54,673 bases of DNA from positions 1 to 54,673 of the forward strand of contig WHTS01000032.1 of assembly GCA_009377585.1 (NCBI GenBank), in the 5' to 3' direction. Shown piece by piece: positions 3,417 to 54,673 of the stretch. The position numbers were made by a program, and so were the translations under genes. Source of the stretch: Betaproteobacteria bacterium. Lineage in GTDB: Bacteria > Pseudomonadota > Gammaproteobacteria > Burkholderiales > WYBJ01. The notes under the pieces are model-generated. The model worked only from the letters and a program-made list of their open reading frames with translations, had not been told where the DNA came from and searched no databases. Every line of letters begins with the position of its first letter. Within the stretch, counting starts at the first letter, position 1.

Positions 3417-4484
3417 ATGTCAACAATGGCCTTCGCTCTTCTAAAACAAACCCTAAAGCGGACGACCTGGAACTTTTGTCGCTCGTTACTTCGCACGTGC
3501 CCTTTTGTTCGCGACGGATATCACTACCTTCTAAAACGAAGGATCGTGCGTGCAATGTTTTATCTACCCGACGCAGTTCGCGCGTATCGCCATATGCGCT
3601 GGGGAACGACGAGGGAAACCTATTGGAAACTCAGCGCGGAGACGATTTTCTACTTTCATAAGTTAGAGAAAGGACTATGCATTCCTGGTCAGAAGCGATT
3701 TTTCGGCGCGGACGCGGCAATCACGTTAGTCTCTTTGCTTGATCGGTGGAGAGCACGCAGCTACTCAATAGATGATCCTGTTTATGTTGGCGCCCTAGAA
3801 TGCCTTCGCGCCTATAGATCTCGCCTTGCCCTCACACCGCCGCCAGTCAAACTAGCCGACGGTCTGAAAAGACGAATCGATACTTGCTTGGCAGATGCCT
3901 CTTCGCGTCCTGAGTTCTCGACTCCAATGTCTGCCATGCAATGTACGGGCGCTGCTGAAACCCTTCAGCGGCTATGTATTGCACGCAGAAGTGTACGTGC
4001 ATATCGTCCGGAACCTGTTGCTTTGAGTGATGTGCACGATGCAATAGCCATTGCGCAACTGAGCCCAAGCGCTTGCAATCGGCAATCTTGGCGCGTACAC
4101 GCTTACCAAGACAGGCGGCAGATGGATTCGTTACTGGCTTTACAGAATGGCAACCGAGGTTTTGGCCATCTCATTCCACTACTTCTTATTATTACTGCAG
4201 AGGCCAATGGATTTTTCGATGGTTCGGAACGCAATCAGCCGTATATTGACGCCGGCTTGTTCACTATGACCTTGCTGCTGTCGCTTCAGGCTAGAGGATT
4301 GTCAAGTTGTTGTCTCAACTGGTGCGTCACAGACCCAACTTTAGACATCAAGGCGCACCGCCTCGGGCGTATCCCAGAAAGTGAGATTATCATCATGTAT
4401 CTAGCAGTAGGGTACGCCGATGACGCTGCGTTGGTGCCACGCTCGGTTCGCAGAGACATTAATTCTTTCTTAGTCGTACACTGA
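3417..4484 (+). CDS. Nitroreductase-family flavoprotein of polysaccharide locus
   Basis: The C-terminal half (from about residue 185) is a nitroreductase-like FMN domain. It shows RRSVRAYRPEPV, LSPSACNRQSWRVH (flavin-binding start), a GFGHLIPLLLIIT core and LGRIPESEIIIMYLAVGYA near the end. The N-terminal ~180 residues are not recognised as a known domain; they are mostly helical. Such proteins are often encoded beside polysaccharide pyruvyl transferases, as here. The substrate is unknown and the enzyme may not reduce nitro compounds. The gene is on the plus strand against its neighbours, looks lower in GC than the locus around it, and is flanked by IS3 debris, all of which suggests acquisition. 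The 3417 ATG lacks a good ribosome-binding site; translation may depend on the leader frame at 3350. Confidence 0.7.
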   Translation: MSTMAFALLKQTLKRTTWNFCRSLLRTCPFVRDGYHYLLKRRIVRAMFYLPDAVRAYRHMRWGTTRETYWKLSAETIFYFHKLEKGLCIPGQKRFFGADAAITLVSLLDRWRARSYSIDDPVYVGALECLRAYRSRLALTPPPVKLADGLKRRIDTCLADASSRPEFSTPMSAMQCTGAAETLQRLCIARRSVRAYRPEPVALSDVHDAIAIAQLSPSACNRQSWRVHAYQDRRQMDSLLALQNGNRGFGHLIPLLLIITAEANGFFDGSERNQPYIDAGLFTMTLLLSLQARGLSSCCLNWCVTDPTLDIKAHRLGRIPESEIIIMYLAVGYADDAALVPRSVRRDINSFLVVH

Positions 4485-7557: not shown

Positions 7558-8766
7558 ATGCTCGACAGACGCTTTTGGGCACTTTTTTGTACGGCATGCT
7601 GGCCGGCTTTCGTGTTCGGCGCATTCGATCCGACGGATGTCGTTCAGATCGAAGCATCGGCATCGCTTTTGCGGGACGACAATTTGTACCGGCTGCCGGA
7701 CGTCGATCCAAGGATATTCGGCATTAGCCCGGAGCAAACTTCGGATACGGTGCGCGTGCTCGGCATCGGGCTGAAGCTCGACAAGGAACTCAGCCGACAA
7801 CGCGTTATTGCAGATCTGAAGCTGACCGACACCACCTTCGACAACAATCCACTACTCGACAATTCAGGTTACGACGGCGGGCTGTTATGGCATTGGCGGG
7901 TCGGAAACTATTGGGACGGAGAGTTGGGGGCAAGACGCCGCAAGTACCAAGCAGGGTTCGCAAATACCAGACTGACAACCAAAGACATCATCACATCGGA
8001 AAGTTATGTCGCATCCGGAGGGTATCTTTTCCACCCGCGATGGCGGATCGGGGGCGAACTACGTGCTCGTGACTACAGCCATAGCGCGCTGAGCAGGCAA
8101 AGCTCCGATCTGGAAACCAGCGGCGCGGCCATCGTCCTGACTTATCGCACCCCGGCCGCCAATTCGATTGGTGCGGAGCTGCGCCGAAATGAGGGCGAGT
8201 ACCCCAACCGGCAGCTTATCGGAGTGGCGGCGTTCGACAACAGCTATACCGAAAACGAGGCCAATGCGATTGTCGCATGGCGCCTGTCGGGTGTCACGAA
8301 TTTCAATGGGACGCTAGGATGGACCGAGCGACGTCATAAGAATTTCCCTGCCAGAGACTTTTCCGGGTTAACGGGAAAGTTGTCGGCCACCTGGGAGCCA
8401 ACGGGAAAGCTGCGGTTTACCGTCACGGGAATCCGCGATATCCGCACGCTCGAGGACGAGGTCAACAATTACGTGCTCGTCAACTCCATAGCGGTCTCAC
8501 CCTCATGGGCGGTCACTTCGAAATTCGCACTCCAGGGGTCACTGATACGGGAGGAGCGTGAATATCTCGGTGATCCTGGGGTCGTGGTCACGGGCGGTCC
8601 AACGCGAGAAGACACGGTGAAGACGGCCAGAGTTGGCATCATTTACACGCCCTTGCGATACATCGATCTAACCCTCTCGTACGAACGAGGCGACCGGCGC
8701 TCCAACCAGTTCCTCAATGACTTCGATTACGAGTCGTGGTTCGGAAGTTTGAGATTACGGTTCTAG
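7558..8766 (+). CDS. epsL: EpsL-type outer-membrane beta-barrel
   Basis: Predicted outer-membrane protein of the XrtB-linked exopolysaccharide system, probably involved in export or surface retention. It has a short signal peptide (residues 1-21, ending VFGA), then alternating beta strands over the whole 402 residues, and closes with SWFGSLRLRF. The terminal Phe is the classic signal for barrel insertion. Length and pattern fit the EpsL family named from Methylobacillus. It is the only intact core gene of the locus on the plus strand apart from the nitroreductase, so it needs its own promoter, presumably within 7370-7557. No strong ribosome-binding site is visible. Confidence 0.8.
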   Translation: MLDRRFWALFCTACWPAFVFGAFDPTDVVQIEASASLLRDDNLYRLPDVDPRIFGISPEQTSDTVRVLGIGLKLDKELSRQRVIADLKLTDTTFDNNPLLDNSGYDGGLLWHWRVGNYWDGELGARRRKYQAGFANTRLTTKDIITSESYVASGGYLFHPRWRIGGELRARDYSHSALSRQSSDLETSGAAIVLTYRTPAANSIGAELRRNEGEYPNRQLIGVAAFDNSYTENEANAIVAWRLSGVTNFNGTLGWTERRHKNFPARDFSGLTGKLSATWEPTGKLRFTVTGIRDIRTLEDEVNNYVLVNSIAVSPSWAVTSKFALQGSLIREEREYLGDPGVVVTGGPTREDTVKTARVGIIYTPLRYIDLTLSYERGDRRSNQFLNDFDYESWFGSLRLRF

Positions 8767-41134: not shown

Positions 41135-43030
41135 CTACTTCTTCTCGATGAGCTCCGGCTTCACCTTGACTTCGACCCGCTGCTTGAGCGCGCTCACGTA
41201 GCCTGCCAGCTGCTCCTGGCCGATGAGGCGATTCAACTGCTCGGCAGCCGCCTTGCGCATCTCGGGTTCGATCTCCGTCGGCTCGCTCACGCGCAAGATG
41301 CGAATCAGCTGATATCCTCCCTTGGGCCCCTCGGCGCCCCCGTACGCCGGCACGCTGCTCGCATCGACCCGGAAGATTTCCCGCAACACCGGCTCGGACA
41401 AGCCTTGCGGATCGGCCCGCCTGACGCCCACGGGCTTACTCCACGTCAAGTCAACGTTTACACCCTTCTCCAGCTTCTCCAGCTTCTCGCGCCCCTCGGC
41501 CAGCGCCCGCTTGCGGGCCTCGTCCTCGACGAGGTGCGTGCGAATTTCGTCGCGCACCGTATCGAACGGCTGGGTCGACGCGGGTTTGTGCTCGAGCAGA
41601 CGCGCGGCGATGAGCGTCCCCGACGCCACCTCCACCACTTCGCTGTTGCGCTTGTTCTGGAGTACCTCCTCGGAGAACACTGCCTTGAGAAACCGCTCGT
41701 TGCCGAGTGGCGAACCGGGCGAAGGCGTGCGCGAAATCCAGGGGCTTTCCTGAACCTTGACGCCGAGCGCCTCGGCCGCGGGCGTGAGCGAATCGGATTG
41801 CTCGTAGGCGATGTTGTTGAACTTCTCGGCAGCCTCGGCATAGCGCTTCGACGCGCGCGCTTTCTTCAGCTCCGATTCGATCATCGGACGCACTTGCTCG
41901 AACGGTTGCGCCGTGCCGCCCCGGATCGCATCGAGCTTGATCAAGTGATAGCCGAACTCGGTTTCGATCAGGCCGGCGATTTCGCCTTCCTTCATCGCGA
42001 AGAGCGCATCGTCAAACGGCTTCTTGGTTGCGCCACGGACGAGAAAGCCAAGATCGCCGCCGTTCTCGGACGAACCGGGATCCTGCGAATGCTTGCGTGC
42101 GAGCTCGGCGAACTGATCGGGCTGCGCTTTCGCCTGCTTCAGCAGTTCCTCGGCCTTGGACTTGGCCGCGGCCTTGGCTTCCGCGCTCGCATCGGCAGGC
42201 ACGGAGACGAGAATGTGCCGGGCCTGACGCTCTTCGGGGGCGGAGAAGCGCGCCGGATTCTGCTCGTAGGCCTGACGAACCTCCTCGGGCGGAATATCGA
42301 CCTGCGCCGCCAGGTTGTCGAGCGAGAGAACGACATATGCCACGCGCACCTGCTCGGGAATCTGAAATTCGCGCGGGTGGCTGTCGTAATAGGCTTTGAG
42401 CGCCGGCTCGTCGATGCTGATCTGCGCGACGAACGCGGACGGATCGATGGTCGCGATCGACACTTCTCGCGTCTGCTCGGAGAGCCGGATCATTCGATCC
42501 ATCACCGCATTGGGCACGAAGCTGCTGTCGCCGAACGCATTGACGAGCGGTTGCAGCAGCAGGTCGCGCCGCACTCGAGCCTCGAAACCGAGCGCGCTCG
42601 CATTCTGCGAGCGCAGGTAGGACTCGTACAGATCGTAGGAGAACTGGCCGCCCTCGCGGAAGGCATCCTGCGAGGTGATGAAGTCGTGCAGCCGGCTATC
42701 CGTGACCGTTAGGCCAGCGCGCACGGCTTGCGACAGCAGAAGACGCTGGCGAACGAGCTGATCGAGCGCGGCAAAGCGCATTTCCGGCGAATCGAGCACC
42801 GCCTGATCGACGGGGACGTTCCCCAGCATGCGCCGCATCGCCTCCTGGCGTTCGCGCAGCGCCTGCTGGTATTCCTGCTCGCCGATGCGGTAATCGCCAA
42901 TGCGCGCGACCTCTGCGCCGAGGTCGCCGCCGCGGAAGTAGCTGTCGACGCCGAAGAAAGCGAACGGCAAAAAGATAAGCGCCAGGATCACCTGCATGAA
43001 GCGCTTGTTGTTGTGGACCCAATCGAACAT
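41135..43030 (-). CDS. ppiD: Periplasmic folding chaperone PpiD (SurA-N and parvulin)
   Basis: Inner-membrane anchored chaperone (631 aa) for newly exported outer-membrane and periplasmic proteins. One helix near the N-terminus (VILALIFLPFAFFGVDSYF), a SurA-N-like domain with LDQLVRQRLLLSQAV, then a parvulin domain: RQARHILVSVPADA, KHSQDPGSSENGGDLGFLV and IETEFGYHLIKLDAI, which keeps the catalytic-site His and Phe positions. A second, degenerate parvulin-like domain follows. The ATG at 43028-43030 opens the anchor. Its 5' flank is the tRNA-Asp scar, as ppiD follows tRNA-Asp in many relatives. Confidence 0.93.
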   Translation of the reverse strand: MFDWVHNNKRFMQVILALIFLPFAFFGVDSYFRGGDLGAEVARIGDYRIGEQEYQQALRERQEAMRRMLGNVPVDQAVLDSPEMRFAALDQLVRQRLLLSQAVRAGLTVTDSRLHDFITSQDAFREGGQFSYDLYESYLRSQNASALGFEARVRRDLLLQPLVNAFGDSSFVPNAVMDRMIRLSEQTREVSIATIDPSAFVAQISIDEPALKAYYDSHPREFQIPEQVRVAYVVLSLDNLAAQVDIPPEEVRQAYEQNPARFSAPEERQARHILVSVPADASAEAKAAAKSKAEELLKQAKAQPDQFAELARKHSQDPGSSENGGDLGFLVRGATKKPFDDALFAMKEGEIAGLIETEFGYHLIKLDAIRGGTAQPFEQVRPMIESELKKARASKRYAEAAEKFNNIAYEQSDSLTPAAEALGVKVQESPWISRTPSPGSPLGNERFLKAVFSEEVLQNKRNSEVVEVASGTLIAARLLEHKPASTQPFDTVRDEIRTHLVEDEARKRALAEGREKLEKLEKGVNVDLTWSKPVGVRRADPQGLSEPVLREIFRVDASSVPAYGGAEGPKGGYQLIRILRVSEPTEIEPEMRKAAAEQLNRLIGQEQLAGYVSALKQRVEVKVKPELIEKK

Positions 43031-43061
43031 AACGTCAGAGCAAATCCGCGTTCGACACAAC

Positions 43062-43086
43062 AAAAAAGGCGAACGGACGTTCGCCT
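43062..43086 (-). terminator. Intrinsic terminator of the former tRNA-Asp unit
   Basis: Stem AGGCGAAC/GTTCGCCT (8 bp, loop of 4) followed on the minus strand by six T residues. It lies 9 bases past the tRNA 3' end and 30 bases upstream of ppiD, so tRNA transcription ends before ppiD. Confidence 0.9.
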
Positions 43087-43095
43087 TGTCTGAAT

Positions 43096-43142
43096 TGGCG
43101 GAGTGGACGGGACTCGAACCCGCGACCCCCGGCGTGACAGGC
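43096..43142 (-). other. 3' fragment of tRNA-Asp(GTC): attachment site of an integrated element
   Basis: On the minus strand these bases are the 3' part of tRNA-Asp: anticodon loop CTGTCAC (anticodon GTC), the 3' anticodon stem GCCGG, variable bases, T arm GCGGGTTCGAGTCCCGT, 3' acceptor strand and CCA. The match to tRNA-Asp ends right after the anticodon loop; the anticodon 5' stem, D arm and 5' acceptor strand are missing. Integrases that target tRNA genes use such a 3' segment as core site and leave a displaced copy at one end. An intact tRNA-Asp is expected at the other end, right of the window. Confidence 0.85.
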
Positions 43143-43230
43143 GGATAATAGCGGCACTAAGTGGTTGATGCAACAAGGAGTGGGCATCGCCAGCCACCAC
43201 TTACGCCGCTTTATCCCCACTCTGAGCGAA

Positions 43231-43518
43231 TTATCCAGTGACACAATTTCGACGCATCCCGGTTTGGGCAAATAGGGGGACCATGCGGGTAGGGATGCGT
43301 GGCGTGGCGATTAGTTTGACCAGACAGAGTTTCCACTTATGCCGCTGTTCAAATTCGCGGGGCCACTTCTGGCCTTCTAGGCCCTTCAGGTTCGTCGTTG
43401 GGGACAGCGTGATGTAGTATCCCTGTACGACGCGATGCAACCAGTTGCCGACAGCGGCAATGGATTCGTGCCGCCGACGCATCAGCGCGTGCCGGAGGGA
43501 CAGCGGCGTGGCTCGCAT
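43231..43518 (-). pseudogene. Group II intron reverse transcriptase/maturase, C-terminal remnant
   Basis: The frame reads RRRHESIAAVGNWLHRVVQG, then YYITLSPTTNLKGLEG and ATPRIPTRMVPL. This lines up with the maturase end of bacterial group II intron proteins (R-R-x-H-x-P-x-x-x-x-G-x-W-L-x-x-V-V-x-G-Y…P-R-x-x-H-P). The RT domain is absent and no intron RNA domain V/VI was recognised nearby. It is debris just inside the element boundary. Confidence 0.55.
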
Positions 43519-43717
43519 TCGCTTCTTCGCCGTGAGGCGAACGATCTGAAACCGGCCCTGCTGGTCCCGACCACAACAGTGACTGAATCTTGGCGAAAAC
43601 AGCGCATGCTCAACATGTTAACGCACGACGGGTTCATAAAAGTTAGGCAGGTTTCCCACCATACCGAAACCGAATTATGAACCACACCTCACGCGTGGTG
43701 AATCAGCGACCAAAAGA

Positions 43718-44425
43718 TCACACAGGTACCACATTTAGGTTAAGCGTCGTTGCAGTTGAAACCCAAACATATGTAACCGAATCGTCTGGATCCTCATCTC
43801 CGATTGCGCTGAACGCCCCATCGGAGGACCCGAATGTCAGTATTTCAAAACTATCACCTATAGCAGGTGTGAACCCGTCGGAATTTCGGACGCTCAGCAC
43901 GCCCTGAAGTCGCGCAATGCCGGATATCGTGATGCGTCCATATTGAGTCGTCGCCGTGCCGCCAAGGAGAACAGACGTAACGGCACCCGGCTGGCTCGTT
44001 AGGTCTCCACTGACATTTATCGATCCACCGGCCCCGGCCGAAATAGTTCCCGCGTTCACCAGGTTGTTCACCTGCAGCAGCGCGCCATCGAGCGCCTGCA
44101 GCGTGCCCTCGTTTCGCACCAACCCACCGTTGAGCGAGATCGACTCGCCCGCGGTGTCCGCCACGATCCGACCCAGCACAATCAACTGCGGCGCCGGCGT
44201 CCACGCCGCCACATCATGCGGCCCCACCATCCCCGACTGCGTGCCATGAACGAGAATCCCCTCGCCGATCGTGAGCACCGTCCCGGCCTCGGTCGCACGC
44301 ACCCAGTTCAAGTCCCCGCTGCCCGCAAACACCACCTCGCCTTCGCCACCGAGCGTCTGCGTGCCCTCGAAGTCCACTCTCGCAAGGTTGCCGGTGCTCT
44401 CCAGCCGGATCACGCCCCCAATCAA
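43718..44425 (-). pseudogene. C-terminal piece of a large adhesin/autotransporter-like protein
   Basis: About 235 codons of beta-helix-like repeats (LIVLGRIVADTAGESISLNG, LVRNEGTLQALDGALLQVNN, NAGTISAGAGGSINVSGDL) ending in YGRITISGIARLQGVLSVRN and TTLNLNVVPV. This is the usual end of filamentous, beta-solenoid surface proteins. An in-frame TGA lies about 21 bases upstream and no start or signal peptide is present; the 5' part is lost where the IS3 fragment begins. It is almost certainly not a functional gene. Confidence 0.6.
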
Positions 44426-44531
44426 CGCAGCCTCATACCCTCGGGATCAGAGGAGGGTCGCAGGAAGTCGGACACGGGGTGAGGTGAAAGCTCTGCTCTA
44501 ATGGGCGCATGTCCGCGCGGAAGCAGGAGCG

Positions 44532-44650
44532 ATGAAACGACCCCGCCGCAATCACTCATCCGAATTCAAGGCGAAGGTGACCTTGGCGGTGGTCGAGATC
44601 CGCCAGACGCTAGTGCAGTTAGCCGAGCGCTTCACGTACATCCCCACCAG
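44532..44650 (+). pseudogene. IS3-family OrfA, N-terminal fragment
   Basis: An ATG at 44532 begins MKRPRRNHSSEFKAKVTLAV and continues VQLAERFTYIP, the helix-turn-helix start of IS3-group OrfA. Homology stops at about 44650, exactly where the caspase-like gene ends on the other strand. OrfB is missing. The element was cut by, or cut into, the boundary of the caspase cassette. Confidence 0.7.
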
Positions 44651-44651
44651 A

Positions 44652-47288
44652 CTACTCAAACAGCCGGCGTTCAATGGGAGTAGTTCGCACGCGCGCTACC
44701 TGAGCCGCAATCCTGGCCGAGCCAATCGCAATTCTAATTTCGGGTTCGGACTCAGACGAGCGTTCGCGGTCCAGGGACTTCAATGCGTCGAGGAGTTGAT
44801 CTCGCGGCAGCGCCGCGAGACCTTCGGCCAGTAGATCCGAGGCGAGCTTGCGTTTGGCGGAGTCTCGATCATAAGCTTTTAGGACCTGAGAGCAGGTATT
44901 CGTCCAGCATTGCCGAGCAATATCCCAAGCAGGTTGTTGGGACAGAGCACGGATTATCACATCGCGGAACGCGGGGTCTGTCGAGTGCCGTTCCAGTACG
45001 GCAACAGCGTCAGGCGGCAGGCGGCGCCTTGTCCCGACGATCGCCAGCCCTTCGAGCCATGGGCCAGGACCGACGACGATGGCCATGCCCTGAAGGGGGA
45101 GCTCCGCCGTCATGCTCTCCGGCTTTGCCAGCTTCGCGCGATCAATGATGTCCAGCAGCATCTTGTCGGTCTCGAATCCCTGACGAGCGAGCACAGTGTA
45201 GATCTCTGCGACGGTGCTTGACAGTGGGGTTCGGTGCGCTGCCACTCGTGCGATAAGCCGGTAGACGAGTGGCCGAGACGACGCGGGGACCTGATGTATA
45301 CCGTGAGCTAGGACGCGCGCGTATTCCGAGTCCATGAAAATGTCTTCGTCCCGATCGATTGCCTCCTTTGCCTTTGCAAGCAGGGTTTGCATCAGCGACG
45401 GCGGGATCGATCGCCTGTCGCCCGCGGCGATCAAGAAGGCAGTCAGGTCGGATTGCTCCTCGCCACCGGCCGAGACGAAGCGCTGATAGACCGTTTCGAC
45501 GGCAAGCAGAGCCGATGGTGACCCGTCTAACAACTCCCTTAGCTGCCTGAGGGCATCGGCTTCGGCTCGATTCGCAGAGTTTCCGTGAAATGTGGACAAC
45601 GCAAGTTGGATAGCTCCCTGCATCTCGGCGGGCTTGCCAACGACCCGGCTCAACGCATTGCGAGCAAGCCGGTCATGGCCGGATGCTGCGAGGCCTTCGA
45701 GCGTGGCGACCATACTCGCTCCCAGAGGCGAGGGGGCTCCGCGGTCTATTCGCGCTTTCGCGATGGTTTCAACCGTGCTGCCAACATCCTCGGCGACGCG
45801 TCGCTGGGCCTCCCGCCCATGTTGCTCGATCGAGCTATGCGCAAGCCACATGGAACACGCCTTCAGGAACCCGACATAGGCCACAAACGCCCTATCCGGG
45901 TCGATCGCCGAGACGAGGCGCAGTGCATCGGCATAGGTCGAGAGATCTTGCTGCCTTAGGTCCAGAATCTCGAAGTCCAGTTCTCGAGCGTCGAAGGGCG
46001 TCACTAGCGGGCTCGTGCGGTTGGCGCCCGGCAGGTGACCCAATAGAGTTTCGAGGTCTTTGGGCTCAGAGCGATCGAGCAGTGCCCACGCAGCAATTAC
46101 AACGTCTGACGGCCGCGATTCGTTGTTCAGTCGCGTGACTGGGTGCGCCATGCCCCCAGACACCAAGACGTCGTATCGTGCAGCTGCGTTTGCACCGAGG
46201 AAGGGTCGAAGCGTATCGTACCAAGAACGATAGCCTCGCCGGGATGCGTGCGTCCACAAGCCCCAAACGTCCCCCGCTTGAACGGCGTATCGATGAACAG
46301 GATCGGTTGACACTTCAGCGGAGTCAATACCAGTAGCCAGCCGCACGCTAGGTAGATACTGGAATATCGGCGCCGTCCATTTCGATCCGTGGCGCAACTG
46401 AATCTGGCCGCTCCGGTCAATCTCGGCGTAGTAAACAAAGGAGTAGACAAAGACCATGACGACGAGACCGGCGAGGACGGCAGACATCGCGATCTGTCTG
46501 ACACGTCGAACCGCCGTGCCGAACGCCGAGCGCTCCTTAAGGCGACGTGCCGTTCGCGCGACTGGTAGTGAAACGGTGCGAGCGCAGACGCCACCTTTGA
46601 CCGGTTCTTGGCGCGCCTGCTTGTGCTCCAATACGTAGAGCGGAACCTGATCACACAGGACAGGAAAGAGCTCACCGTCGACGTCCAAATGGTCGTGCTG
46701 CCAAGCGAGCTTGATGGAACTTCCCGTGTTCAGTAGATCGACGAGATGAGCCGTGAAGATCCCGTGTCGGACATCGTCATCTTCCCACGTTCTCTGATCC
46801 TCGCGAGACGAGGCGATAAAGAGACGTGCATCGCGTGACCCAAGCCCGGCAAAGAAGGTCATCCGTCGAACGATGGCCTCAGCGAAGCAGCAGTCCAGAA
46901 TTAGAATTGTCCTTGATGCGGTCACGGAGGACAGAAACTGGTCGAGTCCCTCCGGTTGCAATAGGGTAGGCGCATTTGAATCGTGCGGCGGCTGCAGGAC
47001 GTATGCCGCACAAAGGTCGTCAACGTAGCCGTGGCCCGAAAGGAAGATCAGGTTGAGATCGTACGGTCCTGCCTCGCGCAATCGCGCAAAGGCGTCTTTG
47101 ATGGCTGCTTCCGTGGCATCGCCTTCTTCGATGTGGATGACGCATGCTTCGTCGGCGTCTGGCCAACACGTCTGAAGGTACCGGACGATCTCGCTGGCGT
47201 CGTTCCCCGCATATCGCAGCAGCGGAAACTGCGAACGGTCAAGCCGATAGTCGCCAATCCCAACAACGATGGCGCCTAAAGATCGCAA
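44652..47288 (-). CDS. Membrane-anchored caspase-like (peptidase C14) protein
   Basis: An 878-residue protein. Residues 1-220 are a caspase/metacaspase-like domain: VVGIGDYRL (first strand), LIFLSGHGY with His86, LILDCCFAEAI with the Cys133/Cys134 pair (Cys134 by analogy with D-x-C), and ASSREDQRTWED plus HGIFTAHLVDLL. A single membrane helix follows at about 267-287. The outer part (about 290-878) is largely helical, with repeat-like Ala/Leu-rich helices and no recognised domain. The likely start is a TTG at 47286-47288, four bases after the stop of the small membrane protein, so both form one operon. By analogy with prokaryotic caspase systems it may be a protease effector of a conflict or suicide system; this is inference. 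Confidence 0.75.
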   Translation of the reverse strand: MRSLGAIVVGIGDYRLDRSQFPLLRYAGNDASEIVRYLQTCWPDADEACVIHIEEGDATEAAIKDAFARLREAGPYDLNLIFLSGHGYVDDLCAAYVLQPPHDSNAPTLLQPEGLDQFLSSVTASRTILILDCCFAEAIVRRMTFFAGLGSRDARLFIASSREDQRTWEDDDVRHGIFTAHLVDLLNTGSSIKLAWQHDHLDVDGELFPVLCDQVPLYVLEHKQARQEPVKGGVCARTVSLPVARTARRLKERSAFGTAVRRVRQIAMSAVLAGLVVMVFVYSFVYYAEIDRSGQIQLRHGSKWTAPIFQYLPSVRLATGIDSAEVSTDPVHRYAVQAGDVWGLWTHASRRGYRSWYDTLRPFLGANAAARYDVLVSGGMAHPVTRLNNESRPSDVVIAAWALLDRSEPKDLETLLGHLPGANRTSPLVTPFDARELDFEILDLRQQDLSTYADALRLVSAIDPDRAFVAYVGFLKACSMWLAHSSIEQHGREAQRRVAEDVGSTVETIAKARIDRGAPSPLGASMVATLEGLAASGHDRLARNALSRVVGKPAEMQGAIQLALSTFHGNSANRAEADALRQLRELLDGSPSALLAVETVYQRFVSAGGEEQSDLTAFLIAAGDRRSIPPSLMQTLLAKAKEAIDRDEDIFMDSEYARVLAHGIHQVPASSRPLVYRLIARVAAHRTPLSSTVAEIYTVLARQGFETDKMLLDIIDRAKLAKPESMTAELPLQGMAIVVGPGPWLEGLAIVGTRRRLPPDAVAVLERHSTDPAFRDVIIRALSQQPAWDIARQCWTNTCSQVLKAYDRDSAKRKLASDLLAEGLAALPRDQLLDALKSLDRERSSESEPEIRIAIGSARIAAQVARVRTTPIERRLFE

Positions 47289-47292
47289 AGTT

Positions 47293-47631
47293 CTACCAAG
47301 TAAAGAATCGACGCAGCGTTGGCGGCGGCGTGACGACGATGTTTCTGCTGCCCTCTGTTTCGGGGATCGACGTCACAAGCTTCTGGAGGATCAACGGTGC
47401 TGACAATCCGACGTGGGCCGCGATGATCGCTTCAGCTCGGTTGCCGAAATAAAACCAAGCCACAAGGCCACCGGCCAACACCATGGCAAGCGTAATGAAC
47501 CAGTACAGAAGACTTTTCGCGTACGCGGGCAGCTGAGGAGATTGACGTAGTCCCCACCAATGCAGGAGTTCAGCTAGGGCGCCCCCAGCGCAACCCGCCA
47601 TGAAGATCGAATGACTTCCTTCAAGGACCAT
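47293..47631 (-). CDS. Small membrane protein paired with caspase-like gene
   Basis: 112 residues with two clear membrane helices (about 37-62: AKSLLYWFITLAMVLAGGLV; and 66-85: AIIAAHVGLSAPLILQKLV) and a possible third near residues 10-25 (AGCAGGALAELLHWWG). It ends with a basic/aromatic PPPTLRRFFTW tail. The ATG at 47629-47631 has a strong GGGAGG ribosome-binding site. Its stop is four bases from the TTG of the caspase-like gene. I do not recognise the family. It may anchor, sense or regulate the caspase-like protein. Confidence 0.7.
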   Translation of the reverse strand: MVLEGSHSIFMAGCAGGALAELLHWWGLRQSPQLPAYAKSLLYWFITLAMVLAGGLVAWFYFGNRAEAIIAAHVGLSAPLILQKLVTSIPETEGSRNIVVTPPPTLRRFFTW

Positions 47632-47908
47632 CGCTCCCTCCCTTCCTCTTGACGAGTAGTCAGTGTGTGCGACGCGATTCTGCGCGGTGGTGAAAGCTAG
47701 GAACCCTCGCCATTGAACTTGATGGGCTTGGATGCCGTCAAGCCATGGCGTCTAGTCAAGACCTAGGTTACCCTGTATGCGTGACAACGCCCCGAACGAC
47801 CGCTTCCGGTCTGTTTCGTTGAAGAACCCCAGTGCGGACGGATGGACCCGTTCGCTTACGTGAACCCATGGTTTGGTATCCGTTGCGTCGAATATCATTC
47901 AGGACATA

Positions 47909-49870
47909 TCAGGAAAGTGAAACTCCACGTTGCCGTCCGAGTTCCCACGAAGCCCCACTCCCTCGGACTATCGCTGTGATGGATTTTCCGCGATGTTTCT
48001 CGATGACCCGCTTCCAGGGAACGAGGCTGAATCCCTGGCCATCGACGAGCATCGCGAAGCGCCCACTGGCAAGCTGTACGTTCCGTCGATAGATCCCGAT
48101 GATACGTTTGCCGTCTTCGGTTGCCCGGAAGGTCAAGCCAGTTTCCGAGGCAATGGTCTTGCCCGCCTGCTCAAGTTCTCGCCTTCGCAGAGTCGATAAC
48201 AGGTCCCGCACCAACACCACGCGCCCGCCACGCCGATGGGCAAGCCCCTGCCCGACCAGGAAGTCCGCACGTTGCCGAAGTGCCGCCCGCACCTCGGCGC
48301 CGAAGCCCCGGTCGATGATTCCGCTCCCGTCTCCGATGAGCTGACGGTCCAGCCAAGTCGCACCGATGGCGCTTGCCTGCTGCTCGATCGGTAGATGCGA
48401 ACACACCTCCACCACCAGGCCGCCCCGCCTGCTGCGGTCGTACCGGGCTCCCTGCTGAGGCAGATCCGCCGGTACCCGCCAGACGCCATCCGCCAGTCGT
48501 TCTACGATGCCGGTCCGGCGCAGCGCTTCGAGCCGCCGCACCTGGATCTGCACGAGATCTGCTGGCGATTGCCCTGGGCTAGGATTCCCACCTGCCAGGT
48601 GGTGTGAGGTCCGGTAGACGCCGTCCTGGACGCTAACGGCGATGGATCGGTCGATTTCCCGTACCCCGAAGGCACTGCGCGCCTCGACAACAGCACCGAC
48701 CGGTAGCGCTTCGAGCTCGCTCCCTGGATTCAACGGGACGAAGTACGCCTTGCCGTCAATTCCATCCAAGGCGAGGAAGCTGCGATCTGCGAGCTCATCC
48801 GCTATGCCCCTCGCCACTACGCGCCCCACTATCGGCTCGGGTCGTTCCGTCGGCTCGAACTGCCCGATCTCGCGTTGCACCCCGCTCATCGCGCGCTGCA
48901 TGGTACGAATGATATCGCCCCGCTCACCCATCGCCCGAAGGATGCCCTCGAGCTCGGCGTGGACGTGCCATTTCCCGGTTGTCCGCTCCTCCGCGAGTCC
49001 CATGCCCTCCAGGGCGCGCAAACGACCCAGCATGAGGAGCCGGGTCTGCGATTGCGGGAAGCTTGCTGAAAGGCGGTCTACATCGACCGAGCCGTTGTCG
49101 ATCTGCCGCTGCAAGGCCCGGTCCAGACTTGTCCAGCGCTCCTGCTCGATCTCGCGAGCCAGGCTCTGGCGAATCTCGAGATCGCTCCGCGGCCCCAGCC
49201 AGGCCGTTGCGAGTTCGGAGGCGCGTCTCCGCATCCCGTGCGCTATGTATTCACCGGAGATCACGAGATCCTTTCCAGCCTCGTCCTTTCCGCGCAGCAC
49301 GATGTGCGTATGCGGGTTGTCGGTGTCCCAATGGTCCACGGCCAGCCAGTCGAGGCGCGTTCCCAGGTCCGCTTCTACGCGATTCATCAGCTGGCGCGTG
49401 AAGGAGCGAAGCGCCTCGAGCTGCCCCGCGTCTTCCGGCGAGACGATGAATCGAAACTGATGCCGATCGCCGTGGCTCCGCGCCTCGAATGCGTCGATAT
49501 CGGCTTCATTCATCATGGCGTCGTAGGCGCGTCCTGGTTCTTCGTTCGGCCCCACGCCTTCGCGCTCGATGTAGCGCAGGTGAGTGAGGGTCGAGCGCTT
49601 CCCGGCTTGCTTCAAGTTCACCAAGCGCACCTTGATCGCAACCCGTCGTGCGGTGATCGCGATCTGCTTGCCACCGAAACGTACTGCGACATGGCCGCGA
49701 CCGAGCGCTGTGGGGCGCGAGGTGCGCCTGCGCAGCGCGCCAGCCCGCACTTTGCTCACTTCAGTCAGAACTCGGGAGACAAATCGTTGGTGGCGGTTCT
49801 TCGGTGCGCCGGGACGCACGCGGAATCGATCATCATTCGAACGTCTTCGCTCCGCAGTGCCGCGTTTCAT
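47909..49870 (-). CDS. Relaxase / mobilisation nuclease with DUF3363
   Basis: Predicted DNA-nicking transferase (653 aa) that starts conjugative or mobilisation transfer at oriT. The N-terminal relaxase part has YDAMMNEADIDAF, HQFRFIVSPEDAGQL and the metal-binding motif WDTDNPHTHIVLRGKDEAGK. The large C-terminal DUF3363 region contains ELADRSFLALDGIDGKAYFV. The ATG at 49868-49870 has GGAG six bases upstream. Upstream lie the TraF-like, DUF2840 and RepA genes, a known order on plasmids and integrative elements of proteobacteria. No type IV secretion genes are in the window, so it may be mobilisable rather than self-transmissible, or they may lie further right. Confidence 0.9.
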   Translation of the reverse strand: MKRGTAERRRSNDDRFRVRPGAPKNRHQRFVSRVLTEVSKVRAGALRRRTSRPTALGRGHVAVRFGGKQIAITARRVAIKVRLVNLKQAGKRSTLTHLRYIEREGVGPNEEPGRAYDAMMNEADIDAFEARSHGDRHQFRFIVSPEDAGQLEALRSFTRQLMNRVEADLGTRLDWLAVDHWDTDNPHTHIVLRGKDEAGKDLVISGEYIAHGMRRRASELATAWLGPRSDLEIRQSLAREIEQERWTSLDRALQRQIDNGSVDVDRLSASFPQSQTRLLMLGRLRALEGMGLAEERTTGKWHVHAELEGILRAMGERGDIIRTMQRAMSGVQREIGQFEPTERPEPIVGRVVARGIADELADRSFLALDGIDGKAYFVPLNPGSELEALPVGAVVEARSAFGVREIDRSIAVSVQDGVYRTSHHLAGGNPSPGQSPADLVQIQVRRLEALRRTGIVERLADGVWRVPADLPQQGARYDRSRRGGLVVEVCSHLPIEQQASAIGATWLDRQLIGDGSGIIDRGFGAEVRAALRQRADFLVGQGLAHRRGGRVVLVRDLLSTLRRRELEQAGKTIASETGLTFRATEDGKRIIGIYRRNVQLASGRFAMLVDGQGFSLVPWKRVIEKHRGKSITAIVRGSGASWELGRQRGVSLS

Positions 49871-50279
49871 AGCGTTCTCCAGCGTAGCAGGCGCGCTTAT
49901 CGCCCAATGGAGTCAGGCTCTTACTAGCATCCGCAGCACAACCGATGAAATGGTGTGTGCTGCGCTAACTATCGTGCAGACAACACAAAATCGGCACACC
50001 TGTGCCGTCCCCTTTTATCTTGTCCTCCACCGCTGCACTGCCTCTTGGCCGTTGCACCTTCACGGCGGCCCGGCTCCTTCGACGTTCGATGCGCCAATCG
50101 GCCAGCGCTTGGAATGCACGTCACGCGGCCAAATGGCGACCAGCATTGCCGCCGCCTGTGCACCTTCAACTCGCAACTGCGGGTGCAAAGTGCGGGGCCC
50201 CCGTCCGTTCTGCCAACGCCCATAAGGCAGCCAAGTTCAACACCCGGCCGCACCATCAGCAGCCCGCGGATGTGTGGCG
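49871..50279. other. Gap between TraF and relaxase genes, possible oriT
   Basis: About 410 bases with no supported gene. It contains a perfect inverted repeat CGGCACA-CC-TGTGCCG at 49993-50008, about 120 bases upstream of the relaxase start. This could be an operator or part of oriT. In related clusters a lytic transglycosylase gene often sits here; none is seen. Confidence 0.35.
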
Positions 50280-50843
50280 TTACTGCCCGGTTTGCGGCCA
50301 TATCCGATCCGCCCGCCCGATCACCGTGCTCGCCTGGATCGGGCCAAAGTAGCGGCTGTCGAAAGACGCAGGATTGTCGACGCTCAACAGGAACAATTCG
50401 TCGCGCGTGAGCCGTCGGCATGCCGCCCACGCCGGCATCCTTCGGCTGAGCCGGTCCGCCTCCAGGATGGTCGCAATCGGAACAAAGTCGATGTATACGA
50501 CGCGACCCAGGATGCAGACATGCTGTGGCGAGACGGCGCCGATCCGCTTCAGGATCGGTACGTGAATAGGCAGGTAACTGCGTTCTGCCGCCAACCTCCT
50601 GAATGCCGCCGGTACCTTCGCCAGCACGATACTTCCGACGTGCCAGTCGTGTGCTGGTCGAATGCGATACCACCCGATCGGCACGCTGTCGGAGACGTTG
50701 TAGATGAGTTGCAACGAAGGTGTGGCTAGCGTCGACCAAGCCAGCGCAGCCAATCCGATTCCGGCCGTGGCTGCTATGGCGATTCTGCTTGGCCGCCTAC
50801 TGTGCCGACGCCGCCCTAACAAGACATCTTCCGCGCGAGCCAT
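50280..50843 (-). CDS. traF: TraF-like S26-family signal peptidase
   Basis: Conjugation-type serine peptidase (187 aa), related to TraF, which processes the pilin. One membrane anchor (about 22-42, RIAIAATAGIGLAALAWS), then YNVSDSVPIGWYRI with the catalytic Ser after N-x-S-D-S, PILKRIGAVSP with the catalytic Lys, and FLLSVDNPASFDSRYFGPI, the S26 C-terminal box. The ATG at 50841-50843 overlaps the end of the DUF2840 gene by 28 bases. A TTG at 50915 would only add non-conserved residues. Confidence 0.85.
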   Translation of the reverse strand: MARAEDVLLGRRRHSRRPSRIAIAATAGIGLAALAWSTLATPSLQLIYNVSDSVPIGWYRIRPAHDWHVGSIVLAKVPAAFRRLAAERSYLPIHVPILKRIGAVSPQHVCILGRVVYIDFVPIATILEADRLSRRMPAWAACRRLTRDELFLLSVDNPASFDSRYFGPIQASTVIGRADRIWPQTGQ

Positions 50844-51271
50844 GCCTCGTGCCTTTCTGTGGTGTACTCGGGAAGATCGCCTTGTCCATGCAACCGATTG
50901 CCGAGGGCACTCCAATAGTCCGGCGAGACGTCAGCCGGATCGACATTCATCGCCTCGATAGCGTCGATCTGCCTCAGCGTCGCGCGCACTTCGCCGTCCC
51001 GTTCTGCGTACAGAAGGACGCGCGCGCCGGGATGAACACCAGCGATTCGCTGCAGGCACTCCCCCGGACTCCCGACTTGCAAGACCGTCATGCGCCAGCA
51101 TGTCGTCCCGTATTCGTTTGCCTCCCAATGGAGCCGGCAAAAGACTTCCCCGGGTCGGAACAGGGCCTGGCTGCGATGACTATTCCTCCGACGCACGATG
51201 GCAGGACGTCCGAAGCGGAGATAGACGTTGATTCGGTGTTCGATGAAGATGAGCGACACACGCGTTAGCAT
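50816..51271 (-). CDS. DUF2840 domain protein
   Basis: A 151-residue protein of unknown function that accompanies traF and repA on many plasmids and islands. It matches the family by LTRVSLIFIEHRINVYLRFG, ANEYGTTCWRMTVLQ, LRQIDAIEAMNVDPADVSP and YTTERHEAWL. The ATG at 51269-51271 opens the first conserved strand; the frame is open to 51379 but that part has no match. The 3' end overlaps traF. Confidence 0.8.
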   Translation of the reverse strand: MLTRVSLIFIEHRINVYLRFGRPAIVRRRNSHRSQALFRPGEVFCRLHWEANEYGTTCWRMTVLQVGSPGECLQRIAGVHPGARVLLYAERDGEVRATLRQIDAIEAMNVDPADVSPDYWSALGNRLHGQGDLPEYTTERHEAWLARKMSC

Positions 51272-51677
51272 GTGCAAGCCGGACTCCGCATGGAGGTTCT
51301 CGGCATGACTGTTTTGAAGACGATTGGAGTGCGCCAGTTGCTTCACCACCGGTTTTCCTAGTGCACTTGCCTTGAACATGATGTCGCTCGAGGAGCGGCT
51401 AAAAACGTTGGCTATCGACGGTTGACTAAATGCAGGACAGAGCTCTTTTTAGGAGGCGCAGCGTTCGATACCTTGGGGACAGGTCGCGCTGTGATGGCCG
51501 GGGTGGTTGCCTTGCTTTCGAAACGTCCCCCCGGGGACCGGTCGCGATGCGTTCGCGCGGTTCACTGTGCCATTTCCTCCACCGCGCGTTGTTCCCTTAG
51601 TGTTTGTTAGGTATTTCAAGTTAAAACCGTTACGGCGCGGCCAAGTCATTGGTTTCCCATGTATTCTGGCACTTTCT
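51272..51677. other. Gap where parA is usually found
   Basis: In related clusters a ParA ATPase gene stands between repA and DUF2840. Here I find no Walker A (KGGxGKT) in any frame, only a Pro/Ala/Lys-rich minus-strand stretch (KATTPAITARPVPKV near 51450-51510) of unknown origin. The right part (51590-51677) is AT-rich and adjoins the iterons. Confidence 0.4.
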
Positions 51678-51741
51678 TGCGTCTGATAGCACGACTCGGC
51701 TGCGTCTGATAGCACGAGTACTGGTGCGTCTGATAGCACGA
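51678..51741. repeat. Three iterons of a plasmid-type origin
   Basis: The 17-mer TGCGTCTGATAGCACGA occurs three times without mismatch at 51678-51694, 51701-51717 and 51725-51741. Start-to-start spacing is 23 and 24 bases, about two helix turns, as for initiator-bound iterons. An AT-rich stretch lies on one side and the repA 3' end on the other. Confidence 0.85.
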
Positions 51742-51765
51742 GGGGATTCACAGCTCCTCCACAAG

Positions 51766-51774
51766 TTATCCACT
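51766..51774 (+). promoter_or_regulatory. DnaA-box-like site
   Basis: TTATCCACT differs in the last base only from the strict DnaA box TTATCCACA. It lies 24 bases from the third iteron and overlaps the repA stop codon. Together with the iterons and AT-rich flank it makes a plausible oriV. Confidence 0.5.
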
Positions 51775-52620
51775 GCGGTCGGTAGCCGGGCTGGGCAACC
51801 GCGCCGGTCGAAAGAACAGTTGCTCGCATCCCCGCAAGTCGCGCTGCACGGCTAGCACATAGCCGGGTAGAGGCTGCTTCGCCGCGATGTCACGCACATT
51901 GCGCGCGAAGTCTGAGAAGCGCGAGAGACTTCCGGACTTGAGGTATAGGTGCCGGAAATCGAATTGCCAGCCGTGTTGCTGGCGGCCGCCGTGCTTTCGA
52001 ACGAGCCGGTAGAGCCATCGCTCGATGCCACCGGTCAGGTTGAAGTATTCCCGATCGATCGTGAGTACGAGCGCTCGTTCCACCACTCCAGCGTAAAACC
52101 AGTCGGGCAGAATAAGTTCGATGCCTAGCGACCGCCCCTGAGCATCGGCCCGCTCCCTCCACTCGTTGATCCAGGAGAACCGGTGCAGCCGACGTCCAGA
52201 GGGCGCTCGAATGGACGTGGCGATACTCGTCGATTGCAGTCGATCCAGGGCCGCCTTGAGACGCACGTAATCCCGCGTCGATGAACCACGGCGTACGAAA
52301 CTGAGGATCTCGTAGGGCGTAGTCTGCATCAGCCGGGAGGTCGGAATGCCAGCATCGCGAGCTTCGACAATCTGACTTGCGGCCCAGATCAGAATGTCTG
52401 CATCCCATACCGTGGCTATGCCGTGCTCCGCGGTACCCTCCACGCGCACCACTACTGCCCCGGACCGAAAATCGATCGGCGCCGTTCGCTTTGACTTGGC
52501 CAGCGAGAAAAACGGATACGCCATCAGATCCTGCGCATCGCGCGGCGACATATCGCCCGGCAACGCGCGGAATGCCAGAAGCTCCTGGCGCGAACTCAGC
52601 AGCGCCGCTGAACTCCCCAT
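51766..52620 (-). CDS. repA: Replication initiator protein RepA
   Basis: Plasmid-type replication initiator (284 aa) of the RepA family common on alphaproteobacterial and betaproteobacterial plasmids and islands. Family motifs: MAYPFFSLAKSKRTAPIDF, WDADILIWAASQIVEARDAG, RGSSTRDYVRLKAALDRLQS, FSWINEWRERAD, and GGIERWLYRLVRKHGGRQQH. It should bind the iterons just past its own 3' end. The ATG at 52618-52620 is 21 bases behind the AlpA-like gene; no clear ribosome-binding site. No frameshift is visible, so the protein looks functional. Confidence 0.9.
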   Translation of the reverse strand: MGSSAALLSSRQELLAFRALPGDMSPRDAQDLMAYPFFSLAKSKRTAPIDFRSGAVVVRVEGTAEHGIATVWDADILIWAASQIVEARDAGIPTSRLMQTTPYEILSFVRRGSSTRDYVRLKAALDRLQSTSIATSIRAPSGRRLHRFSWINEWRERADAQGRSLGIELILPDWFYAGVVERALVLTIDREYFNLTGGIERWLYRLVRKHGGRQQHGWQFDFRHLYLKSGSLSRFSDFARNVRDIAAKQPLPGYVLAVQRDLRGCEQLFFRPARLPSPATDRSG

Positions 52621-52641
52621 AGCGCATCAATTGCGCAGACC

Positions 52642-52926
52642 TTAGAGGGGCACGGGAGCTCGCTGGGAGAGCTGAGGCGCGTCGCAGGTCGCCTCGAAGG
52701 TGCGCGCATCGGCCCACGCTTCGAGATCGACGAGCGCGTACATGACACGCCGCCCGAACTTCCTGAAGCGAGGTCCTCCGCCGATCACGCGTTGCTTCTC
52801 GAGAGTGCGCGGCGAGAGCCGCAAGAACTCGGCCGCCTCGTCATTTGTTAGGTATCGCGGTCGAGCGCCGCCCGCCGGTTGTGGAAGTGCTGCTGCTACG
52901 GGTTGCCGCGAAAAGGAATGTCGCAT
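52642..52926 (-). CDS. AlpA/MerR-like helix-turn-helix regulator
   Basis: Small DNA-binding protein (94 aa) with RYLTNDEAAEFLRLSPRTLE, the excisionase/AlpA-type winged helix, then GPRFRKFGRRVMYALVDLEA, the usual wing. It probably regulates repA or excision. The ATG at 52924-52926 has GGAGG eight bases upstream. It overlaps the end of the DUF2285 gene by 31 bases, so the regulators and repA form one operon. Confidence 0.85.
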   Translation of the reverse strand: MRHSFSRQPVAAALPQPAGGARPRYLTNDEAAEFLRLSPRTLEKQRVIGGGPRFRKFGRRVMYALVDLEAWADARTFEATCDAPQLSQRAPVPL

Positions 52927-53798
52927 TGCGTCTGCCTCCATCGATCCGAATCGCCGGCGGAGCAATCGCCGACGGGTGGAGGCAGTATGGTAGAAGTCAG
53001 TCGCCCTGCGGATGGCCGTTTCGCGCGCGAGCCAGGGCGACCCTGTTGACGCGTACTGCCGTATAGGAGTTGCCTGTACCCGCCCCGCATCAATTGACTG
53101 CCGCGACGCACCAGTCGTCGCACTTTCGAACGCATACCGCTGTCGGCATGCCAATGATTTGCAAGAGCAGAACCGAATAACACGTCTGCGATCTCATGCG
53201 CACTCGCGCCGGCCAAGTGTCCGTCCAGGGCTTGCAGGGTCTGCATCTCAAGTAAAGCCGAGGCCGTGGGCCGCGGAATTGTGGCCGCGATTGCATGTGA
53301 TGTGCTTCTTTCGATCTTTTTCAGCTCGCCGCCGAGCATTAGGGTGCGGTTGTGAAGAAGCTGTCCTGGGCGAACGACGTAGGCGAACGGCATGCCGTCC
53401 GCCAGGCTTGCGGCAAGAGCCAGGCGGGCATTGCACCCAGGTTGTCTCACGAAGACCGACAACGTATGCCCGTCGAACACGATCTGTTTCCGGCCAGGCA
53501 AGTTCCAAAGGCGAAATGGGGCAGCAACATCTTCCGAGTCGGTATCCGGACACAGCCGGAGCACGCATTCAAGATCAGGAGTCCAGATGGGACAGGCATC
53601 GCGTGCGTCCAGTTCGGGATCCTCGAATAGGCGCAGACCCCATCGACCGGCTGCAGCGGAAGCACCTTGCCGCCGCCAGTCCTGTCGGTACTCCGGATTG
53701 CGCCTCAAGTACTCCCAAGCGAGGGCCGGGGCGCCTAAAAGGAGAGCGTATAGGTATCCCGCATGAGGGTGCCACTCGTAGAGGTCCGAACGTCGCAT
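52896..53798 (-). CDS. DUF2285-containing regulator
   Basis: A 300-residue protein typical of integrative elements. The N-terminus (YEWHPHAGYLYALLLGAPAL then WEYLRRNPEYRQDWR) is the transcriptional-regulator-type domain found with DUF2285; the C-terminal DUF2285 part has LQALDGHLAGASAHEIADVL and SKVRRLVRRGSQLMRGGYRQ, a helix-turn-helix. A further ~45 residues after GYRQLL are not conserved. The ATG at 53796-53798 has GGAGG six bases upstream. It heads the leftward operon to repA. Confidence 0.85.
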   Translation of the reverse strand: MRRSDLYEWHPHAGYLYALLLGAPALAWEYLRRNPEYRQDWRRQGASAAAGRWGLRLFEDPELDARDACPIWTPDLECVLRLCPDTDSEDVAAPFRLWNLPGRKQIVFDGHTLSVFVRQPGCNARLALAASLADGMPFAYVVRPGQLLHNRTLMLGGELKKIERSTSHAIAATIPRPTASALLEMQTLQALDGHLAGASAHEIADVLFGSALANHWHADSGMRSKVRRLVRRGSQLMRGGYRQLLYGSTRQQGRPGSRAKRPSAGRLTSTILPPPVGDCSAGDSDRWRQTQCDIPFRGNP

Positions 53799-53972
53799 GC
53801 GTGGCCTCCACGAAGGAAGTAGAGCTCAACGTCAGAACGATATGGTCGCCGACGAATGCCTAGGCCGCATGACCGATTGGATCTCGCTGATGCGATGCTC
53901 GGGCATACTGGGGATTGATTCGTACAAGGTGAGCGCGGAGACTGCGCACCAGCGCTTCGCCGTTGCCTCCCA

Positions 53973-54065
53973 CTAGAACCAATCGGCAGGGATCAGGCAC
54001 CGCCGCCTGCGGATGAGGGTCTCGGCAACATCGCATTTCGCCACGTGTTGCGCACGCGGCCTGAC
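53973..54065 (-). pseudogene. SRAP (YedK/HMCES-like) fragment
   Basis: On the minus strand a frame ends AETLIRRRRCLIPADWF before a stop at 53973-53975. It resembles the R-R-R-R-C-L-I-P-A-D-G-F-Y-E-W motif of SOS-response-associated peptidases. The protein's catalytic N-terminus and its C-terminus are missing. The stretch from 53799 to 53972 holds nothing else recognised. Confidence 0.35.
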
Positions 54066-54112
54066 TGGGTTGAGAATCGAGCTAGGAGATCGACTCCGGA
54101 GGAGATCAAGCC

Positions 54113-54673
54113 ATGTCAGTAGAAGCAGTGCGGGAAGCGCTAGCGCCGCAGACCGGAGCAGTCGATGTTGCTCCGCTTTCGATTCACATCGGTGCGGAGA
54201 TCCACGGCGTCGATCTGTCGCGCCCTCTTCCGGCGGAGCACGTGAGCGCAGTGCGTGCTGCGCTGCTACGCTGGAAAGTGGTCTTTTTTCGCGATCAGTC
54301 GCTCGATCATGGCCGGCACATCGCAGCCGCGCGCCAGTTCGGCGAAACGACCGCCGGACATGTCGTCTACGGCAGCGACGGCGAGTACCCGCAGATTTAT
54401 TCCGTGGCCAAGAACCGGAAAGCAAACAGGTTCCAGGGCCAGGTCCTGTTCCGGCCGTGGTCGGGCTGGCACACCGACATCACCGCGGCCATCAACCCGC
54501 CTGCCGCGTCCATGCTGCGCGGCGATATCGTGCCGCCCTATGGCGGCGACACCCAGTTCACGAACCTGGTCGCTGCCTACAACGCGCTGTCGCCTGTCAT
54601 GCGGACATTCGTCGATAAACTGCGCGGCGTGCACCGATTCGCTCCGCCGCCGGGCGTGGACGAGACGCCGGAG
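54113..54673 (+). CDS. TauD/TfdA-family dioxygenase, 5' part
   Basis: Fe(II)/2-oxoglutarate-dependent dioxygenase, cut by the window edge after 187 codons. It shows IGAEIHGVDLSRPLPAEH, VVFFRDQSLD, the metal-binding pair in WHTDITAAINPP (His and Asp of HxD) and YGGDTQFTNL. The ATG at 54113-54115 has GGAGGAG eight bases upstream. It is transcribed away from the replication operon. The substrate may be a sulfonate, an aryloxyalkanoate or other; it cannot be decided from this part. Confidence 0.9.
   Translation, partial: MSVEAVREALAPQTGAVDVAPLSIHIGAEIHGVDLSRPLPAEHVSAVRAALLRWKVVFFRDQSLDHGRHIAAARQFGETTAGHVVYGSDGEYPQIYSVAKNRKANRFQGQVLFRPWSGWHTDITAAINPPAASMLRGDIVPPYGGDTQFTNLVAAYNALSPVMRTFVDKLRGVHRFAPPPGVDETPE

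Follow-up and report, generated by a model that had tools for sequence, protein, structure and literature searches.

Genomic islands that reside in tRNA genes have been catalogued in the Islander database, in whose published account attachment sites centred on the anticodon form a listed class of 2083 islands and the displaced fragment is as a rule a 3′ one, in 3760 islands as against 159 with 5′ fragments (PMC4383910). Another family that bears on the present locus is that of Tn4371, for which the description of insertion sites and the accompanying table state that characterised elements integrate at TTTTTCAT, that pPNAP01 of Polaromonas naphthalenivorans is classed as Tn4371-like, and that pPNAP01 and several others are entered without a direct repeat (PMC2789088). 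The gene order of pPNAP01 is radC, parB, DUF736, DUF2958, DUF2285, HTH, RepA, ParA, DUF2840, S26 and relaxase, all in one direction except for one reversed HTH gene. In the collection of papers searched, none joins tRNA-Asp, genomic island, integrase and Burkholderia.

The window analysed here is the entire contig C32 (54,673 bases) of a draft genome assembly (G000; 6.76 Mb, 242 contigs, 4.85% contamination), and an element reaching its right-hand side therefore runs off the contig end. We hold with high confidence that a mobile element, at most mobilisable, is integrated at the anticodon loop of tRNA-Asp(GTC), between hupB-tRNA-Val and ppiD, with its attL on a second contig, C1, and its attR in the window. 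The attR side, compared below with three other genomes of the genus (G001–G003), comprises the following features:

41135–43063, − strand: ppiD, likely start at about 43030, the ancestral flank; the name is that of the initial annotation, from sequence (ORF, start motif, homologue after tRNA-Asp in G001–G003)
43066–43087, − strand: terminator of the original tRNA-Asp, which remains on the ppiD side (hairpin scan; same hairpin in G001)
43094–43142, − strand: attR core, the displaced 3′ part of tRNA-Asp(GTC), beside ppiD (49 bp identical to part of the intact gene plus the bases that follow it, G000:C1:175220–175268)

The initial annotation had recognised a tRNA-Asp 3′ part at 43096–43142 next to ppiD and had expected its 47 bases to recur at a far end with an intact tRNA-Asp. 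The identical copy within an intact tRNA-Asp confirms the fragment, although the repeat is 49 bp long rather than 47 and the far end is located on contig C1 rather than downstream within the window. In the search of the assembly, the shared block is 100% identical to the intact copy (E 3.5e-18) and has only one further copy, C1:175220–175268, inside the tRNA-Asp(GTC) that is the only intact one detected by DNA searches; the lack of a second copy, which had been named as a ground for rejecting the interpretation, is thereby excluded. Neither ARAGORN nor Rfam identifies a complete tRNA at the fragment, and a 28-base pattern taken from it, with up to 3 mismatches allowed, occurs once in the window and in none of 100 shuffles. 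The terminator that had been placed on the ppiD side of the fragment corresponds to the hairpin at 43066–43087, which is also found 3′ of the intact tRNA-Asp in G001; the scan by itself is non-significant, with 1 hairpin found in 601 bases against an average of 0.6 in shuffles. A promoter-like sequence (TTGCAT-17-TATTAT), considered as driving an RNA from the tRNA half, was dropped, as the consensus scan shows no promoter-like site just outside the displaced fragment.

At the other end, the gene order on C1 is lon-hupB-tRNA-Val(TAC)-tRNA-Asp(GTC)-integrase, where the first two genes are those we take to be lon and hupB, the names having been assigned from reading the sequence. The tyrosine integrase (C1:175284–176411, 376 aa, Phage_integrase E 1e-16) converges on tRNA-Asp, with its stop 12 bp from the shared block; an integrase adjoining the intact tRNA had been predicted, and, in line with the remark that none lies in the window, tblastn with nine integrases gave no relative of this family there. 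Beyond the integrase are a 166-aa ORF without Pfam or NCBIfam match and then the start of radC, which is cut by the contig end at 177,471. The two att copies, the integrase and the gene order are observed directly, and the locus shows two features of tRNA-borne islands, namely an intact tRNA gene whose displaced 3′ fragment is also present, and an integrase gene inside the island beside one of its ends. The element had been estimated to extend at least 11.5 kb to the right of the fragment, which holds for C32; at least 2.2 kb on C1 is to be added, so that its length is at least 2.2 kb plus 11.5 kb, with the middle unassembled.

The empty site is likewise observed directly. In all three congeners (G001–G003), tRNA-Val and tRNA-Asp are followed, uninterrupted, by a ppiD homologue, in agreement with the earlier proposals that relatives lacking the element would have tRNA-Asp next to ppiD and that the ppiD side is the ancestral flank. 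The distance from the start of the tRNA core to the ppiD start motif is 174 bases in G001, 85 in G002 and 112 in the window; the exact motif was not found in G003, where similarity to ppiD begins again some 350 bp beyond the tRNA and thus leaves no room for an island. The stretch 43143–54673 of the window has no match at E 0.001 in G001–G003 among the 40 candidates scored per genome, out of 81 to 121 at first look.

From these observations we infer a recombination event that made C1 and C32 the ends of one element. The C1 integrase would have recombined the chromosomal tRNA-Asp with a corresponding 3′ segment of tRNA-Asp carried by a circular form of the element. At the hupB end, the tRNA gene would have been rebuilt from the host 5′ half and the element 3′ half (attL, adjoining the integrase), whilst the host's own 3′ half and its terminator would have been displaced to the ppiD end (attR). 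Assignment of the right end of C1 and of C32 beyond 43142 to the island settles the boundary in the draft assembly, and both contigs can therefore be placed around tRNA-Asp.

Against a single element stands the location of the two ends on different contigs, with no contig that joins them. It is conceivable, although unlikely, that attR and attL once belonged to one element and were later rearranged apart, with housekeeping chromosome of the type on contig C69 now between them. Among the radC pieces found, only C69 starts without the 5′ part and only C1 ends without the 3′ part, the C69 tail (residues 130–168) fits what is missing from the C1 piece (residues 1–114), and C69 continues into genes of a housekeeping kind, presumably purN/purM/panB-like from reading their sequence, which are ill-suited to a simple island. 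However, C1 and C69 do not overlap exactly over 12 or more bases, and copies of the radC 3′ end are repeated on C69 near two ORFs read as tyrosine recombinases; the tail may belong to another insertion. On C69 itself (L079, 1–7740), the radC 3′ end is followed by these two adjacent ORFs, and its copies form direct and inverted repeats at about 4150–4260 and 7660–7740, an arrangement that, we presume, recalls a Tn554-type insertion at radC. In an attempt to extend the other end, C32 and contig C91, which carries a TauD tail, showed no exact overlap, and the start of C91 had no blastn match to the TauD loci of C103 or C216.

An assembly artefact would require a mixed population of empty sites and circular elements, between which the assembler crossed over at the repeat; a shared block of only 49 bp, in a genome of 242 contigs with 4.85% contamination, is in its favour, but the assembly contains just two copies of the block, flanked exactly as attL and attR, and neither attB nor attP. 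A chimera at 43142, of which the initial annotation had warned, is accordingly very improbable, as the only other copy has just the expected complementary flanks (hupB side and integrase side), and such a chimera would still represent the same element in another state. That the fragment arose by chance or by decay, or remains from a duplicated tRNA with no integration involved, has nothing in its favour beyond the fragment itself, and we give it almost no credence: all 49 bp are identical (100%), the block is bounded at the anticodon loop as related islands are, an integrase adjoins the second copy, and 3/3 congeners keep the arrangement intact.

The integrase has relatives at E 0.001 or better in 34 of 60 genomes (own included); near-full-length relatives other than our own copy are at most 39% identical, and short pieces reach 40%, a distance that counts against our reading. 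At 9 of 14 integrase loci, again counting our own, a tRNA was present in the DNA searched. A contig scan with the integrase sequence alone gave no relative, which likewise counts against, and the survey was carried out as a contig scan with alignment A1, from which the best 80 of 469 confirmed loci were kept. Of these 80, 68 have a tRNA no more than 600 bp from the integrase 3′ end, and in all 68 the two genes converge; 12 have no such tRNA, three of them at contig ends. The tRNA targets of the 68 loci comprise 15 anticodon kinds and 9 amino acids; tRNA-Asp is absent among them, which we count against our reading. A related integrase also occurs elsewhere in the same genome, beside tRNA-Lys(CTT) on C38 (L096, 1182–1257), with no displaced fragment in 10 kb.

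In the DNA searched, a displaced 3′ fragment was detected at 26 of the 68 tRNA-associated loci among the best 80 of 469, with a second, weaker one at two of them. In 22 of the 26 the fragment opens with the first anticodon-loop base, two positions ahead of the anticodon (−2), and the others start one base earlier (two), at −5 (one) and at −10 (one); the surveyed loci are not independent, several being from related Nitrosomonas genomes. Fragments also start at −2 in G045 (tRNA-Asn), G003 (tRNA-Lys, two fragments) and G037 (tRNA-Pro), the tRNA-Lys element of G003 being survey locus L139, whose stretch of DNA in the survey was too short to include its fragments. These two tRNA-Lys fragments lie 9 kb apart on G003:C1, where they follow a single intact tRNA-Lys and a single related integrase, and probably represent tandem islands in one tRNA gene. 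No displaced fragment was found in the stretches searched of G035 C92, G001 C66, G017, G003 C18, G003 C14 and G000 C38, nor for the tRNA-Thr of G007 within its own 3.9-kb locus.

The sharpness of this boundary was examined in 30 fragments, namely 25 of the 26 from the survey, the four of G045, G003 and G037, and our own. At distances 1 to 8 before the loop, the element-side bases matching the tRNA number 3, 11, 5, 5, 6, 8, 6 and 13 of 30, which is near the chance expectation of 7.5 (distance 8, with 13, being somewhat above), in a test that admitted only fragments identical to the tRNA from the first loop base onwards and in which later-starting fragments cannot show. The block at our locus starts at −4, two bases further into the stem; two chance matches would explain this start, and the fragment fits the loop rule. 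That the shared block begins at the 5′ boundary of the anticodon loop across many kinds of tRNA constitutes a sharp rule, and the change of tRNA target within the integrase family is thus directly testable.

The element on C32, from the attR core to the contig end, comprises the following features:

43143–44650, no strand assigned: element end without assigned genes, with an ORF and an IS-like scrap (ORFs, comparison with own contigs)
44652–47288, − strand: caspase-like protein, 878 aa, cargo (Peptidase_C14 above cut-off)
47293–47631, − strand: small 112-aa protein adjoining the caspase-like gene (only a sub-cut-off DUF4131 match)
47909–49870, − strand: relaxase with DUF3363 (436 bits)
50280–50915, − strand: S26 signal peptidase, TraF-like (family search, pPNAP01 match)
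50816–51379, − strand: DUF2840 protein (family search, pPNAP01 match)
51766–52620, − strand: RepA, replication initiator protein A, RPA (family search, pPNAP01 match)
52642–53154, − strand: HTH_17 protein (family search, pPNAP01 match)
52896–53798, − strand: DUF2285-type / RovC DNA-binding regulator (family search, pPNAP01 match)
54113–54673, + strand: TauD-type dioxygenase, truncated at the contig end (family search)

In the end without assigned genes, the ORF at 43718–44425 (− strand) shares 29% identity with a portion of a 9594-aa frame on C15 of the same genome, and the scrap at about 44463–44658 is 78% identical to C125, the term IS-like reflecting a reading of its ORF. The caspase-like protein scores below the cut-off of the EACC1-associated caspase model (69 of 140 bits) and partially matches a PADLOC caspase model (E 2e-12, residues 6–219). 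Together with its small neighbour, the caspase-like gene lies between the relaxase and attR (44652–47631) and is possible defence cargo. The relaxase has a MobA/VirD2 domain below the Pfam cut-off (20.6 of 24.6 bits) and is 58–60% identical to 15 plasmid proteins among the matches listed, mostly annotated relaxases. Just upstream of its gene, 49932–50024 is 81% identical to G000:C182:1981–2073, possibly a transfer-origin region or the remnant of a second element. The HTH_17 gene is probably shorter than its ORF, as its pPNAP01 match starts near 52893. At the contig end, the last 642 bp (54032–54673) are 93% identical to C103, and this TauD near-repeat perhaps broke the assembly there. The assembly contains 58 TauD matches, fragments included, a family that seems unusually large for one genome.

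To assess the relationship to pPNAP01, 14 of its proteins served as queries for a search that covered C32, the terminal 20 kb of C1, the initial 20 kb of each of C69, C91 and C107, as well as C182 and part of C38. Six of the 14 (DUF2285, HTH, RepA, DUF2840, S26 and relaxase) match C32 in the same order with 52–78% identity, and residues 1–114 of radC align with the C1 end at 69% identity, C69 and C107 having other pieces of radC; the second pPNAP01 HTH has a weak match on C182 only. The C1 and C32 halves are collinear and co-oriented with the pPNAP01 scaffold, which supports both being one element. ParB, DUF736, DUF2958, ParA, the small hypothetical protein and TetR (6/14) have no match in the stretches searched, an absence that also counts against our reading. 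A DUF736 search of the whole genome gave no match, but carries no weight, its control being likewise positive nowhere.

PF03135 (CagE/TrbE/VirB4) has no match in the 242 contigs, whereas the control gave a match in 1 of 14 named genomes, and the best reading is consequently of a decayed island, at most mobilisable, that would have lost self-transfer. Unlike integrative and conjugative elements (ICEs), the assembly is without a match to TrbE/VirB4, the sole conjugation-apparatus family searched, and missing contigs could explain the absence. Of the features of mobilisable elements (IMEs), integrase and relaxase are both present, but on two contigs.

With the Tn4371 family, as represented by pPNAP01, the element shares the order of radC followed by DUF2285, HTH, RepA, DUF2840, S26/TraF and relaxase, whereas it lies in tRNA-Asp with a 49-bp repeat and not in a site of the TTTTTCAT type, as the family's description has it (PMC2789088). 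Furthermore, the parA of the RepA-ParA-TraF-relaxase scaffold was not found in the stretches searched, the order being otherwise kept, and, in contrast to pPNAP01, a caspase-like gene follows the relaxase. As in the islands of the Islander account, a tyrosine integrase splits a tRNA gene, with the intact gene at one end and the displaced fragment at the other (PMC4383910); our element differs in that its ends, which in such islands are 2–200 kb apart on one replicon, lie on two contigs and its middle is unassembled. The surveyed islands of Nitrosomonas, Comamonas, Burkholderia, Sphingomonas and others have integrases 31–37% identical, a convergent tRNA at 68 of 80 loci (the best 80 of 469) and, in most of those with a fragment, the same anticodon-loop start, whereas the targets at the 68 loci exclude Asp.

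The element may be a hybrid, in which a replication/mobilisation scaffold of the Tn4371/pPNAP01 type has been joined to an integrase family of many tRNAs and re-aimed at an apparently single-copy tRNA-Asp, the host gene now being half element-encoded; we regard the case for this reading as evenly balanced. As part of the same joint reading, and held in the same balance, the rule of the integrase family would be that the element carries all of the gene between the initial anticodon-loop base and the 3′ end. The initial observation and its interpretation both stand, with small corrections. The island is of the ordinary tRNA-borne kind; what the present analysis contributes is its far end and the integrase there, the uninterrupted sites of the congeners, the hybrid scaffold, and the rule by which this integrase family uses the anticodon loop.
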